DNA of 64,000 nt from Turicibacter bilis (GTDB taxonomy: Bacteria > Bacillota_I > Bacilli_A > MOL361 > Turicibacteraceae). Made by a program: the position numbers and the translations under genes. This document shows, piece by piece, positions 6,905 through 63,495 of the stretch (within the stretch, counting starts at the first letter, position 1; the number at the start of each line of letters is the position of its first letter). Location of the stretch: NCBI RefSeq assembly GCF_024499055.1, contig NZ_CP071249.1:2163001-2227000 (forward strand), given 5' to 3'. The notes under the pieces were generated by a model. It saw nothing but the letters and a program-made list of their open reading frames with translations, had not been told where the DNA came from and did not search any database.

Positions 6905-7050
6905 CTCTTATTAAGAGCGATGGAGGCATAGGGGCCTATGAAGTCGCGGCAACCTCCTTGAATAGGAAGGTGCCGACCCAAGCGAGTTTAACTCGAGCAA
7001 TAAGAGGGTTTGAATCAGTCATTCAAGTCCGCTTATAGCGGACTTTTTTT
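6905..7050 (+). ncRNA. SAM-I (S-box) riboswitch with its terminator
   Basis: The aptamer (6905-7006) shows the closing P1 helix CTCTTAT with ATAAGAG, the conserved AAGAGCGATGGAGG, the GGCCTATGAAG segment, and the GGCAACCT...AGGTGCC P3 helix. An intrinsic terminator follows at 7025-7050: GTCCGCT pairs with AGCGGAC before seven T. Such riboswitches turn transcription off when S-adenosylmethionine binds. The downstream gene is metK, the SAM synthetase, which fits direct feedback control. Confidence 0.93.
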
Positions 7051-16229: not shown

Positions 16230-16426
16230 GATTGTATTTATCATTAGTAAAATTAAAAATGAGATAGATAAGTCTCAGTAAATTTTATGTATCACAAAAT
16301 TTTTAGGGCCTAGCAGTTGAGGATTAATACTTCGAATGGCAGGGACCCACTGAGATTATAGGATGCCTTGAATGGCATGAGCTTTAAACATTTAGTTTGC
16401 AACAGTGAATGTAGAAAACATTTCTG
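16230..16426 (+). other. Structured 5' leader upstream of pcrA, class unknown
   Basis: No gene is visible. A helix can form between AAGTCTCAGT near 16270 and ACTGAGATT near 16350. It would enclose about 70 nt that includes GGGCCTAGCAGTTGAGG and GCAGGGACCC. A small hairpin follows, ATGCC with GGCAT. The region lies downstream of a good promoter and runs directly into a copy of the 130-bp dispersed repeat. It does not match any riboswitch consensus I can recall. Confidence 0.4.
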
Positions 16427-16560
16427 TATATAAGTCCAGATGAGTTTTTTATAGTGTAAAAACTTTTATCTGGACTATAGGCTGCTTTAATATCAGAGCG
16501 GTTAATGAATTAAGATAGATACAAAATTGTAAAATATATTTCTGTATCTATATAGATGAA
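16427..16560 (+). repeat. Dispersed 130-bp hairpin element, copy A
   Basis: It begins TATATAAGTCCAGATGAG and forms a long hairpin with TTTTATCTGGACTATAG. An AT-rich tail with a conserved ATTTCTGTATCTATATA end follows. It closely matches copies at 30013-30140 and 43282-43413. This copy ends about 20 bp before the pcrA start and overlaps the probable leader RNA. Confidence 0.85.
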
Positions 16561-26783: not shown

Positions 26784-26808
26784 TAAAAACCCTATCTATT
26801 AAATAAAA
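26775..26808 (+). terminator. Left arm of the split uvrA terminator (interrupted by the IS)
   Basis: The arm AACTAATAAAAACCCTATCT, followed by ATT, begins at the last uvrA codons. It is complementary to the stretch at 28266-28290 on the other side of the insertion sequence. Rejoined, the two arms would make a rho-independent hairpin with a T-rich 3' side. Confidence 0.6.
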
Positions 26809-26811
26809 TGT

Positions 26812-26860
26812 ACCCTAGAGAGTAGACAGATAAAAAAAGTCTACCCTCTAGGGTCTTTTT
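26812..26860 (+). terminator. Terminator-like hairpin inside the IS left end
   Basis: ACCCTAGAGAGTAGAC pairs with GTCTACCCTCTAGGGT over a 16-bp stem with one mismatch, followed by five T. It lies before the orfA promoter-like TATAAT at 26863-26868 and would block transcription entering from uvrA. Confidence 0.75.
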
Positions 26861-26898
26861 GGTATAATATAAACTATTAGATTTTGGGAGGATTTTAG

Positions 26899-27309
26899 AT
26901 GAGCAAGAAGTTATTTACACCACAAGAGATTGAACAACTCAAACAAAATGAATATGTTAAGTCAGTGTCTGAAAAAGGGATTACTTATACGAAAGAATTT
27001 AAGGAGAACTTTATTATGATGAGCGAGAAAGGAAAGTTTCCACGAGAGATATTCGAATACTATGGATTTAATGTTGCGATGCTTGGCATGCAGCGTGTGA
27101 ATTCTGCAGCTAAACGTTGGAAACAAGCCTTTAAAACTCAGGGGCCATTAGGATTGGATGATAGTCGTACCAAGAATTCTGGAAGGCCTCTAAAACGAGA
27201 GTTAACGATAGAAGAACAATTATTACGTACGCAAGCTGAATTAGAAGTTTTAAAGATTGAGAACGAATTATTAAAAAAGTTGAGACTCATGAGAAAAATG
27301 CTCGAATAG
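26899..27309 (+). CDS. IS3-family transposase OrfA (helix-turn-helix protein)
   Basis: A 136-residue OrfA protein that would bind the element's ends. The middle (about residues 35-90) looks like a helix-turn-helix domain. The C-terminal portion (about 104-136, EEQLLRTQAELEVLKIENELLKKLR) is a leucine-zipper-like coiled coil, as is usual for IS3 OrfA. GGGAGG precedes the ATG. The frame ends shortly after the slip site A_AAA_AAG at 27273-27279. Slippage by -1 there continues into OrfB, producing the full OrfAB transposase; OrfA alone often acts as a regulator in this family. Confidence 0.88.
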   Translation: MSKKLFTPQEIEQLKQNEYVKSVSEKGITYTKEFKENFIMMSEKGKFPREIFEYYGFNVAMLGMQRVNSAAKRWKQAFKTQGPLGLDDSRTKNSGRPLKRELTIEEQLLRTQAELEVLKIENELLKKLRLMRKMLE

Positions 27310-27313
27310 TCTC
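27273..27313 (+). promoter_or_regulatory. Programmed -1 ribosomal frameshift signal
   Basis: The heptamer A_AAA_AAG lies exactly in the 0 frame of orfA (27273-27279). Three bases later GAGACT (27283-27288 region) can pair with AGTCTC ending near 27313, forming a stimulatory hairpin. After a -1 slip, the frame stays open (VETHEKNARIVSKEVKFQ) into orfB. Confidence 0.85.
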
Positions 27314-28229
27314 TAAAGAAGTAAAGTTTCAAATGATTCATCAAGTAGTGAGTCAGACATCAACTAAATTTAACTCTTTAATTTCTCATTTATGCGATAG
27401 TCTTGGTGTTTCAAGATCAGGTTATTATCGTTATTTTTCGTCATGTGCTGAAGAAGCACGTTTAAAGCGATTAAAAGAGGAACAACAACGTTTAGAAGTT
27501 ATTCAACAGGCCATTCATTTCAAGGGACGAAAAAACAAGGGAATTCGCCAAGTAGCGATGGTTCTTAAAGGAGAATTCAACATCGCCTTTAACCTAAAAT
27601 CTATTCATCGAATCATGAAAAAATATGGATTATTGAGTCAAGTTCGTCGCAGCAATCCCTATCGTAAACTCGCTAAAGCGACGCAAGCACATCGCGTCTG
27701 TCCAAATCTTGTTAACCGTCAATTTAGGCCATCAGAACCTTACAAAGTTCTATTAACCGATATCACTTATTTAAAATATGGAAAGGGTCAGACTGCCTAT
27801 CTCTCGACCATTTTAGATAGTGCAACGAATGAAGTTTTAGCTTTTCAATTAAGTGATAATTTAAAGATAGATTTTGTTCTCCAAACACTGAACCAACTTG
27901 AAGAAAATCCGACTGTCCAATTAACGAAAGAAACGATTATTCACTCCGATCAGGGAGTGCACTATACGAGTCCACAATTTTCGAATCAATTAAAGGAATT
28001 GGGAATTCAACAATCGATGTCTAGAAAGGGTAATTGTTGGGATAACGCTCCACAAGAATCATTTTTTGGGCATCTAAAAGATGAAGCAGATATAACAAAT
28101 CAACTGACATTTGATGATTTACTCATTGAAATTGAAGATTATATGGATTACCATAACAACTTTAGATATCAATGGAATTTAAATAAGCTGACTCCTGTAG
28201 GATACAGAAATCAGCTTCAAGTTGCTTAG
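27280..28229 (+). CDS. IS3-family transposase OrfB (DDE integrase domain), expressed as OrfAB fusion
   Basis: The catalytic half of the transposase, about 298 residues counted from the ATG at 27333, but probably reached by frameshift from orfA rather than started there. It holds the N-terminal HTH_21-type domain (ASRSGYYR-like region and KGRKNKGIRQVAMVLKGEF), then the rve integrase core. The DDE residues are visible in LLTDITYLKYG, IHSDQGVHYTSPQF and NAPQESFFGHLKDE. The IS150-like subgroup is my best guess. I see no frame disruption, so the element may be active. Confidence 0.85.
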
Positions 28230-28260
28230 TTTTTTTTCTTTGTCCTTGACAAAGGGTACA

Positions 28261-28290
28261 GATTAAAATAGATAGGGTTTTTATTAGTTT
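28261..28290 (+). terminator. Right arm of the split uvrA terminator
   Basis: AATAGATAGGGTTTTTATTA, followed by GTT, is the reverse complement of the arm left of the IS. The T-rich end fits the 3' side of an intrinsic terminator. The following 380 bp up to the next promoter (28291-28670) is AT-rich and shows no gene. Confidence 0.6.
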
Positions 28291-30012: not shown

Positions 30013-30140
30013 TATATAAGTCCAGATAAGTTTTTCAGATCATAAAAACTTTTATCTGGACTATAGGATGCTTTTGTATTAAAGTAATTCACTAACTAAG
30101 GCTAGTGTAGAATTATAAAATACATTTCTATTTCTATATA
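30013..30140 (+). repeat. Dispersed 130-bp hairpin element, copy B
   Basis: TATATAAGTCCAGATAAG pairs with TTTTATCTGGACTATAG. The tail ends in ATTTCTATTTCTATATA. It lies between a strong terminator and the YvlD-like gene's promoter, so it may be transcribed poorly here. Confidence 0.85.
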
Positions 30141-30220
30141 GTTACCAAAATATTGAGTGAATAATTCATATTAATGAAATCCTTAAATATGAATTCAATT
30201 TACAACAATTACTAAAAATG

Positions 30221-41690: not shown

Positions 41691-43048
<1,358 letters not shown>

Positions 43049-43116: not shown

Positions 43117-43281
43117 TGTATAAAAGTATCTTATTGTCTTAGATAATAGGTAATTATTTTTGGAAAGTATAAAAAATTGACTGCTATTATTATCGATCTG
43201 TATGATGGATGTCTTAGTACCGGAGTTTTTGATAGCTAAGGTTAATCCTAGAAATGCGACATAGATTTCACCTCATAGATA

Positions 43282-43413
43282 TATATAAGTCCAGATAAGT
43301 TTTTCATATCGGAAAACTTTTAGCTGGACTATAGTCTGTCTTAGTATTAAAGCAATCGATTAACTAAGACTGATATAGAATGATGAAATACATTTCTGTT
43401 TCTATATATATGA
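43282..43413 (+). repeat. Dispersed 130-bp hairpin element, copy C
   Basis: TATATAAGTCCAGATAAG pairs with TTTTAGCTGGACTATAG with one mismatch. The tail includes GTATTAAAGCAATCGATTAAC and ends ATTTCTGTTTCTATATA. It lies between eno's terminator and the AI-2E-family gene. The intervening 165 bp (43117-43281) shows no gene. Confidence 0.85.
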
Positions 43414-62181: not shown

Positions 62182-63495
62182 GTGAAGAAATTAATGACAT
62201 CTTTATCACTTGTTGCTGGTGTAACAACATTAGCAGCTTGTTCAAGTGATAAAAAAGAACAGGCACCATCATCAACTGAGATTGTAACAACAATTGAAAG
62301 TCCTGTAACAATCGAATTTTGGCATGCTATGGCAGGAACAAATCAAGAAGCTGTTGATGCGTTAGTAAATCAGTTCAATACAACAATTGGGGCTGATAAA
62401 GGAATTACTGTTAAACCTGTATATCAAGGTCAATACACAGATTTAAAAACGAAAACAACAGCTGCTTTAAAATCAGGTTCAGCTCCAGCTATTGCTCAAG
62501 CATATCCTGACTGGGTTGCTGAGTATTTACAATCAGGAAATGTAGTAGAATTAGATCCTTATATCTTAAATGAAGAAGTTGGAATTAATGATTTTGATGA
62601 TATCATTAAATCTTATCGTGATGAAAATAGCCAATATGAAGGTGGAAAGTTCTACTCTTTACCATTCAATAAATCAACAGAAGTTCTATACTACAATAAA
62701 ACATTCTTTGATCAAAATAACTTAACAGTACCAACAACTTGGGATGAGGTAGAAGAAGTTTCTGCTAAAATCAAAGAATTAACTGGAAAAACTGCATTTG
62801 GTATTGATGCACCAGCAAACTACTTCATTACAATGGTACAACAATTCGGTGGACAGTATACAAACTCTAATGGAGACATCTTATTCGCTGAAGATGGAGC
62901 TAAATACGCGATTGAAGCTTTAGAGTTATTAAAACGTAATGCTGATGCTGGTTACTGGCGTTTACCAGGTGAAGATAAATATCTTTCAGGACCATTCATG
63001 AGTGAATTGCTTTATATGTACACTGGATCATCTGCTGGATACTCACATATTGCAACAGCTGACTTTGAAGTTGGTATTGCTCCAATTCCTCAAATCTCTA
63101 AAGAAACAGGTGCGGTTATCCAACAAGGTACAAATGTTGTTGTTTTCAATCAAAATAAATCACAAGAAGAGGTTTATGCAGCATATGAGTTTGCTAAATT
63201 CTTATCTTCATATGAAGGAAACTTAGCATTTGCAACAGCAACTTCTTATTTACCAATTCGTGAATCAGTTATTGCTTCTGATGCATATCAAAAATACGTA
63301 GCTGAATCTAATGATCAAACAAAAGTAGTTGGACCAGAACAAGCTGATTATTACTTCTATGATCCTTCATTCTTCAAAGATACATATTCTTCATACAATG
63401 TTCGTACAGCAGCTGAAAAAGCTGTTGAAGCGGTTGTATTAAGTGGAGTATCTCCAGAACAAGCGATTCAAGAAGCTGTTAACTCTTTGAAATAA
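62182..63495 (+). CDS. ABC importer substrate-binding lipoprotein (UgpB-like)
   Basis: A 437-residue lipoprotein. The signal peptide MKKLMTSLSLVAGVTTLAAC ends in the lipobox TLAAC with Cys20. The mature sequence has the UgpB pattern ITIEFWHAMAGTNQEAVDALVNQFN, with GSAPAIAQAYPDWVAEYLQSG and FNKSTEVLYYNKTFFDQN, close to glycerol-3-phosphate or glycerophosphodiester binding proteins. Sugars are an alternative. The start is a GTG after AGGAGGACT. It closes a four-gene operon with the UgpC-, UgpA- and UgpE-like genes, and a terminator follows. Confidence 0.88.
   Translation: MKKLMTSLSLVAGVTTLAACSSDKKEQAPSSTEIVTTIESPVTIEFWHAMAGTNQEAVDALVNQFNTTIGADKGITVKPVYQGQYTDLKTKTTAALKSGSAPAIAQAYPDWVAEYLQSGNVVELDPYILNEEVGINDFDDIIKSYRDENSQYEGGKFYSLPFNKSTEVLYYNKTFFDQNNLTVPTTWDEVEEVSAKIKELTGKTAFGIDAPANYFITMVQQFGGQYTNSNGDILFAEDGAKYAIEALELLKRNADAGYWRLPGEDKYLSGPFMSELLYMYTGSSAGYSHIATADFEVGIAPIPQISKETGAVIQQGTNVVVFNQNKSQEEVYAAYEFAKFLSSYEGNLAFATATSYLPIRESVIASDAYQKYVAESNDQTKVVGPEQADYYFYDPSFFKDTYSSYNVRTAAEKAVEAVVLSGVSPEQAIQEAVNSLK

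Follow-up and report, generated by a model that had tools for sequence, protein, structure and literature searches.

A probable IS630-type MITE family with a BOX-like composite interior in Turicibacter bilis

Introduction

The repeat RUP of Streptococcus pneumoniae has been described as a MITE which occurs in high copy number and whose terminal inverted repeats (TIRs) are similar to IS630-Spn1 (PMC3049150). BOX, which is found in S. pneumoniae and Streptococcus suis, follows the modular order boxA-boxB(n)-boxC with lengths of 67-637 bp; in S. suis the flanking modules around common middle units are of several types, and the BOX TIR was compared in the literature with ISSpn2 and not with IS630 (PMC3049150). 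BrickBuilt of Porphyromonas gingivalis is a MITE in which a tandem repeat array lies between a leader and a tail module (PMC4596501).

The family presented here was found in a 64,000-nucleotide stretch of the Turicibacter bilis chromosome (the window; positions 2163001-2227000 of the 2,786,784-base, i.e., 2.79-Mb, genome G000), and literature searches for it, also under the name of the host, returned nothing on the family. As in the case of RUP, it consists of short non-coding repeats with terminal inverted repeats that resemble a resident IS630-family element; however, RUP has a simple structure and a length of about 107 bp, whereas the family described here is composite, with 0-9 internal units and three subtypes of the right module. 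With BOX it shares the variable unit number, a predicted RNA fold that sets the middle units apart, the tendency to cluster, and lone modules (PMC3049150). This likeness rests on the plan, as also here a left module and a right module enclose 0-9 tandem units; for BOX, ISSpn2 has been proposed as the partner, whereas here the ends match IS630 and the units occur also alone inside genes of insertion sequences. BrickBuilt shows a comparable tandem array between the terminal modules of a MITE (PMC4596501), but its array consists of 23-nt minisatellite repeats that follow each other without spacers, while the units described here are hairpins of 45-63 nt that carry compensatory changes and exist also outside the MITE. 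REP/RAYT systems offer a comparison for the middle unit only, both being small palindromic units that occur in arrays and alone, and differ in that no associated Y1 transposase was found adjoining the units here. In our assessment the element is very probably a non-autonomous MITE of IS630 type whose interior is composite in the manner of BOX.

Copies in the Window and Modular Architecture

A sequence-only reading of the window had listed three copies of a hairpin element, and all three were recovered in place by BLAST within the window, in alignments of 131-136 nt with 78-84% identity (104-139 bits, E 4e-25 to 2e-35; the best of ten Markov shuffles reached 29 bits) (Table 1). The long hairpin that it had described, AGTCCAGAT(A/G)AG and the strand pairing with it, folds as claimed, and its description of the sequence is accurate except for copy 3, which reads TTTTAGCTGGACT and not TTTTATCTGGACT. 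The element runs ~80 nt beyond the hairpin as far as TATATA. Two older, eroded copies beside copies 1 and 3 had been overlooked.

Table 1. Members of the element family in the window and their parts (positions refer to the 64,000-nucleotide stretch).
Feature	Position	Strand	Remarks
Older eroded element	16265..16432 (about)	+	One middle unit; ends in TATATA where copy 1 starts, head-to-tail
Middle hairpin unit inside eroded element	16309..16348	+	17.4 bits, E = 0.019 over the window
Right module of eroded element beside copy 1	16354-16432
Short-form element copy 1	16427..16555	+	Right-module subtype R1; upstream of pcrA
Copy 1 left hairpin	16433..16476	+	Outer stem AGTCCAG/CTGGACT around inner AAGTTTTT... 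hairpin; fold and compensatory changes
Copy 1 3' terminus	16530..16554	+	Counterpart of IS630 left end (reverse complement)
Short-form element copy 2	30013..30141	+	R1; upstream of YvlD-like (PF04020) gene
Eroded right module adjoining copy 3	43207..43276	+	Head to tail with copy 3
Short-form element copy 3	43282..43408	+	R1; upstream of AI-2E-family gene

The elements are composed of a left module of ~40 nt (TATATAAGTCCAGATAAGTTTTTCATATCGTAAAAAC), 0-9 tandem middle hairpin units, and a right module of 83-89 nt that exists in three subtypes and ends in ATTTCTGTTTNTATATA. The middle units are mostly 45-51 nt and up to about 63 nt long (an example is CCCTAGCAGTTGAGGATTAGATTTCTTTCAGAAATCGCTAGGTGACCC), with the consensus NTTCCCTA-stem-GGAGGA bulge-apical hairpin-stem-GGTGACCC. 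Two places of the element, the loop of the left hairpin and a second site within the right module, have gained 0-9 of these small hairpin units. In long copies the units sit inserted in the loop that is equivalent to the left hairpin of copy 1, and the outer stem AGTCCAG/CTGGACT closes over any loop content; the right-module site is used in elements 912250, 916184, 1119587, 1387187, 2282153, and 2685427. The element at 2525602-2526180 contains nine units, several of which are identical, and unit number would be altered after insertion by slippage or recombination.

Family Size and Distribution

For counting, the chromosome was searched by BLAST with the three subtypes and a middle array, followed by profile searches of the fetched stretches. 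This resulted in at least 76 family elements in G000 on both strands, of which 62 have both a left and a right module, 3 a left module only and 11 a right module only, so that the expected high copy number per genome is borne out. The elements are dispersed, about 126-579 bp long and, as had been proposed, without coding capacity, which agrees with the description of a MITE as short, non-coding and present in many dispersed copies.

In a BLAST survey of 60 genomes the family was present in five, i.e., in all five of the genus, and in none of the 55 others. A model of the middle unit, applied with strict filters, matched the five genus genomes, gave one weak match in the same bacterial family and none among 241 genomes outside it. 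Neither a search for the element pattern in genome-contig and viral-contig collections nor BLAST against plasmid and phage collections returned a match to the element, in collections from which the host genome itself is perhaps absent. These data bear on whether the family belongs to the pneumococcal/S. suis BOX by descent, as its A-B(n)-C plan with tandem middle units, lone modules and nesting, its length range in comparison with that of BOX, and its several flanking-module types around common middle units, as in S. suis, might suggest. With the literature pairing the BOX TIR with ISSpn2 instead of IS630, and with a middle unit that the model did not find beyond the bacterial family, we consider such a descent highly improbable.

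Element Ends and the IS630 Partner

In the IS630 family, an HTH ORF and a DDE ORF are usually joined as one protein by frameshifting. An IS630-family element is located at G000:C1 about 1449040-1450216, with two ORFs (172 and 177 aa) in different, overlapping frames. Its identity is given by DDE_3 (PF13358), found with 144 bits in two G000 copies, which share 99.4% identity, and in several G001 copies at about 90% identity in this sister genome; in G002-G004 the element was not detected.

The 5' end of the MITE corresponds to the right end of this IS630 element and its 3' end to the left end. The MITE 5' sequence CAGATAAGTTTTTCA matches the IS630 right end exactly, and TATATATAAACAGATAAGTTTTTCACAT, the reverse complement of that right end, agrees with the 5' end of the MITE from CAGATAAG on. 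The 3' end of subtype R1 shows 93% identity over 28 nt (E 1e-7) to the IS630 left end, TATATAGAAACAGAAATGTATTTCAT, which is its reverse complement, while the R3 3' end ACTTATCTGTTTATATATA matches the IS630 right end exactly. For most end comparisons, among about 2350 ungapped positions tried along the IS630 element the terminus scored best, and the matches lie at equal distance from the terminal TA and in consistent orientation. The match is not perfect throughout: at its 5' end the MITE has AAGTC at positions 7-10 where the IS630 end has TAAAC, R3 left ends match IS630 poorly and are an exception, and the terminal inverted repeats are themselves imperfect (TATATAAGTCCAGATAAGT vs. TATATATAAACAGATAAGT; 15/19 in R3 and 13/19 in R1). 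The IS630 transposase, for which the HTH and DDE ORFs would be joined by frameshifting, would bind both MITE ends in trans and would move the MITE by cut-and-paste into TA.

The chief difficulty for this mobilisation step is G004. Its copies include recent ones, with pairwise identities of up to 98%, but a gene for the IS630 transposase was not detected, as PF13358 gave no match in this assembly, which is listed as complete. Its mobiliser was lost, has diverged, or was something else. That relatives without IS630 hold only old copies is ruled out by these 98%-identical copies.

Target Sites and Mobility

The element inserts at TA, and a single TA remains at uninterrupted sites. The clearest case is the element at G000:62870, which interrupts a coding gene with an uninterrupted orthologue in G001: upon removal of the element, with one TA kept, the ORF is colinear with the orthologue across the junction without a gap. 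At 505140 the G001 locus L116 represents the empty site, with TAG aligned at the junction in diverged intergenic DNA. Target duplication and uninterrupted sites in relatives are found in the form of TA, at the protein level for 62870 and additionally at 505140. The site of copy 1 upstream of pcrA is empty in G003 and carries an old element at the corresponding place in G004; that of copy 2 is empty in G001 and G004, again in diverged intergenic DNA. Upstream of pcrA in G001 (L100), the element is replaced by GC-rich hairpin units of another kind that are arranged in tandem; on the opposite strand they resemble the middle unit.

The 5' and 3' flanks of the copies mostly have only TA in common, and a 2-bp TA duplication beside TATATA-rich ends is by itself weak evidence, as TATATA masks the exact duplication length; the sites at 62870, 2314572, and 2346234 would also fit a 4-bp duplication. 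Since the ends contain TATATA, one element frequently inserts at the end of another, which gives the head-to-tail pairs with TATATA in common that are frequent in the family.

MITE copies have spread recently to non-orthologous sites. A copy in G001 is 99% identical to copy 3 of the window and lies at a non-orthologous place, in contrast to identities between G000 and G001 of about 80% for pcrA and about 77% for the AI-2E gene. As a separate observation, the enolase region at 41726-43048 of the window shows 95-98% DNA identity across the genus vs. about 70-80% in neighbouring genes.

Because of its ends and TA sites, we file the family as an IS630-associated MITE. Of the natures proposed in the sequence-only reading, the MITE is the one supported, namely by the many copies, the imperfect TIRs matching IS630, the TA sites and the interrupted gene.

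Folding, Covariation and Gene Context

Short copies fold 3.7-4.0 standard deviations better than shuffled sequences (z -3.7 to -4.0). In an alignment of the genus's 29 distinct left hairpins, pairing was kept in 90.3% of cells and 27 double-change cells were observed vs. 9.1 in shuffles; the covariation score of 0.197 (0.112 in shuffles) was reached by 0/500 shuffles, and controls with slid positions gave 0.03-0.09 (at most 0.091). In the left hairpin, compensatory changes are present in both stems. The basal stem of the middle unit showed 17 double-change cells vs. 8.4 expected in 30 hand-picked units, and 41 vs. 20.7 in 84 distinct model matches, for which the alignment was fitted to that stem. 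Covarying stem pairs, which the sequence-only reading had proposed to look for, are thus confirmed, with compensatory changes beyond shuffles. The covariation supports the pairing, and does so without telling selection on an RNA from DNA-level constraints on a palindrome.

These compensatory changes in both stems, the stable folds of the short copies and the location of all three window copies in front of a co-oriented gene would be expected also of a structured cis-regulatory or trans-acting RNA family that is retained for function at gene starts and is not a transposon. The common orientation to the downstream gene is true of the window but does not extend to the genome: when the nearest ORFs were determined with a simple ORF caller, 39 elements lay in co-directional, 10 in convergent, and 9 in divergent gaps, and orientations were distributed 25 to 14 in co-directional gaps (25/39) and 34 to 24 overall (34/58), a bias that is not significant. 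Despite the compensatory changes, a dedicated regulatory RNA is unlikely because the orientation of the elements to genes is unbiased. Moreover, one copy breaks a coding gene, sites 1 and 2 are element-free in sister species, near-identical copies occupy non-orthologous sites, the element ends match an insertion sequence, and promoter-like matches upstream of pcrA are at chance level; at copy 1, neither promoter nor terminator signals beyond those of shuffles were found within the element. In an Rfam scan of the window and the unit-bearing loci at gathering score, element and unit belonged to no family. The RNA family, which had been offered as another option, is thus not supported as the primary nature of the element, and we judge it improbable.

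The gathering-level Rfam matches in the scanned DNA are unrelated, i.e., SAM and c-di-GMP-II riboswitches and tRNA. The SAM riboswitch lies at 6905-7006 of the window (82 bits). Beside a long-form element, L021 contains at 949-1157 two adjacent c-di-GMP-II riboswitch matches, one with 69 bits and the other, below the gathering score, with 43 bits.

For the MITE, effects of single copies on neighbouring transcripts are possible: an element transcribed from a neighbouring gene would fold and may alter how stable the adjacent transcript is or how strongly it is expressed, as reported for BOX.

The Middle Unit Outside the MITE

Middle units occur also elsewhere, singly or in arrays, and in either orientation. 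Solo units were found in genes or gene ends of insertion sequences (L147, L155, L161-L165, L167-L172, and L174-L176), which we take to be of the IS3, IS66, and ISL3 types from short peptide motifs that we recognised. Comparison with uninterrupted relatives revealed insertions of 44-49 nt without clear target duplication: 49 nt in an IS3-type orfB (L147 vs. L121), 49 nt in an IS66-type tnpB region (L164 vs. L065, 80% identity), 45 nt at an ISL3-type gene end of G001 (L174 vs. L126, 94% identity; GATTTAA/AATGGT with nothing duplicated), and 44-45 nt in an ISL3-type gene of G003 (L167 vs. several relatives). The window also contains at 26803-28265 an IS3-family element with ORFs 26899-27309 and 27333-28229, which has 94-96% identical copies in G001 and G003.

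L167-L172 are six copies of one ISL3-type element of G003, all with one and the same unit inside the transposase gene. As copies of one insertion sequence inherit the unit by descent, the insertion events are fewer than the occurrences. An open frame through the unit was found in 0/13 cases tested in such genes, and the G003 element has multiplied although its tested copies lack one.

Hairpins with a GGAGGA motif that insert without clear target duplication are reminiscent of REP-like palindromes moved by a RAYT/Y1 (IS200-type) transposase, and Y1 transposases are present in 4/5 genus genomes. However, the Y1 genes examined belong to IS200-type elements of the ordinary kind, ~768 bp long, whose terminal hairpins are unrelated, and these loci have no units of their own, the sole covariance-model matches there being a MITE near L182; furthermore, G004 has units but no Y1 match, and the MITE has IS630 ends and TA sites. 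The REP-like option of the sequence-only reading is hence not supported, and we regard it as scarcely credible. As a partner of the middle unit, Y1/RAYT is rejected, no transposase flanked by the palindromes being found among the Y1 genes examined. An observation on the IS200-type elements themselves is that two of them lie in tandem at G003:C1 1512161-1513277, among seven nearly identical G003 copies.

The Y1 genes examined and the fetched DNA yielded no mobilising enzyme for the unit, and a longer element bearing two unit halves at its ends was not present in the fetched DNA. We tentatively propose, at somewhat less than even confidence, that the middle unit is a hairpin which moves independently and is much smaller than the MITE; in either orientation and with no clear target duplication, it would enter the MITE in two places as well as genes of IS3-, IS66-, and ISL3-type elements, with the MITE as one of its carriers.

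Discussion

The family is a MITE with IS630-type ends as proposed for RUP, and it is built like BOX. Thereby a RUP-like MITE and a BOX-like modular interior are joined within one family. The spread of composite bacterial repeats is a question that was left open for BOX; here, one IS630 transposase is a concrete candidate enzyme and intact short copies are available for asking how such repeats spread. For annotation, at least 76 sites of the G000 genome, one interrupted gene among them, are accounted for by one family. The novel part is the unit that occurs alone inside IS3-, IS66-, and ISL3-type elements and for which no mobilising enzyme was found; if they are independently mobile, these hairpin units would be unusually small mobile modules.
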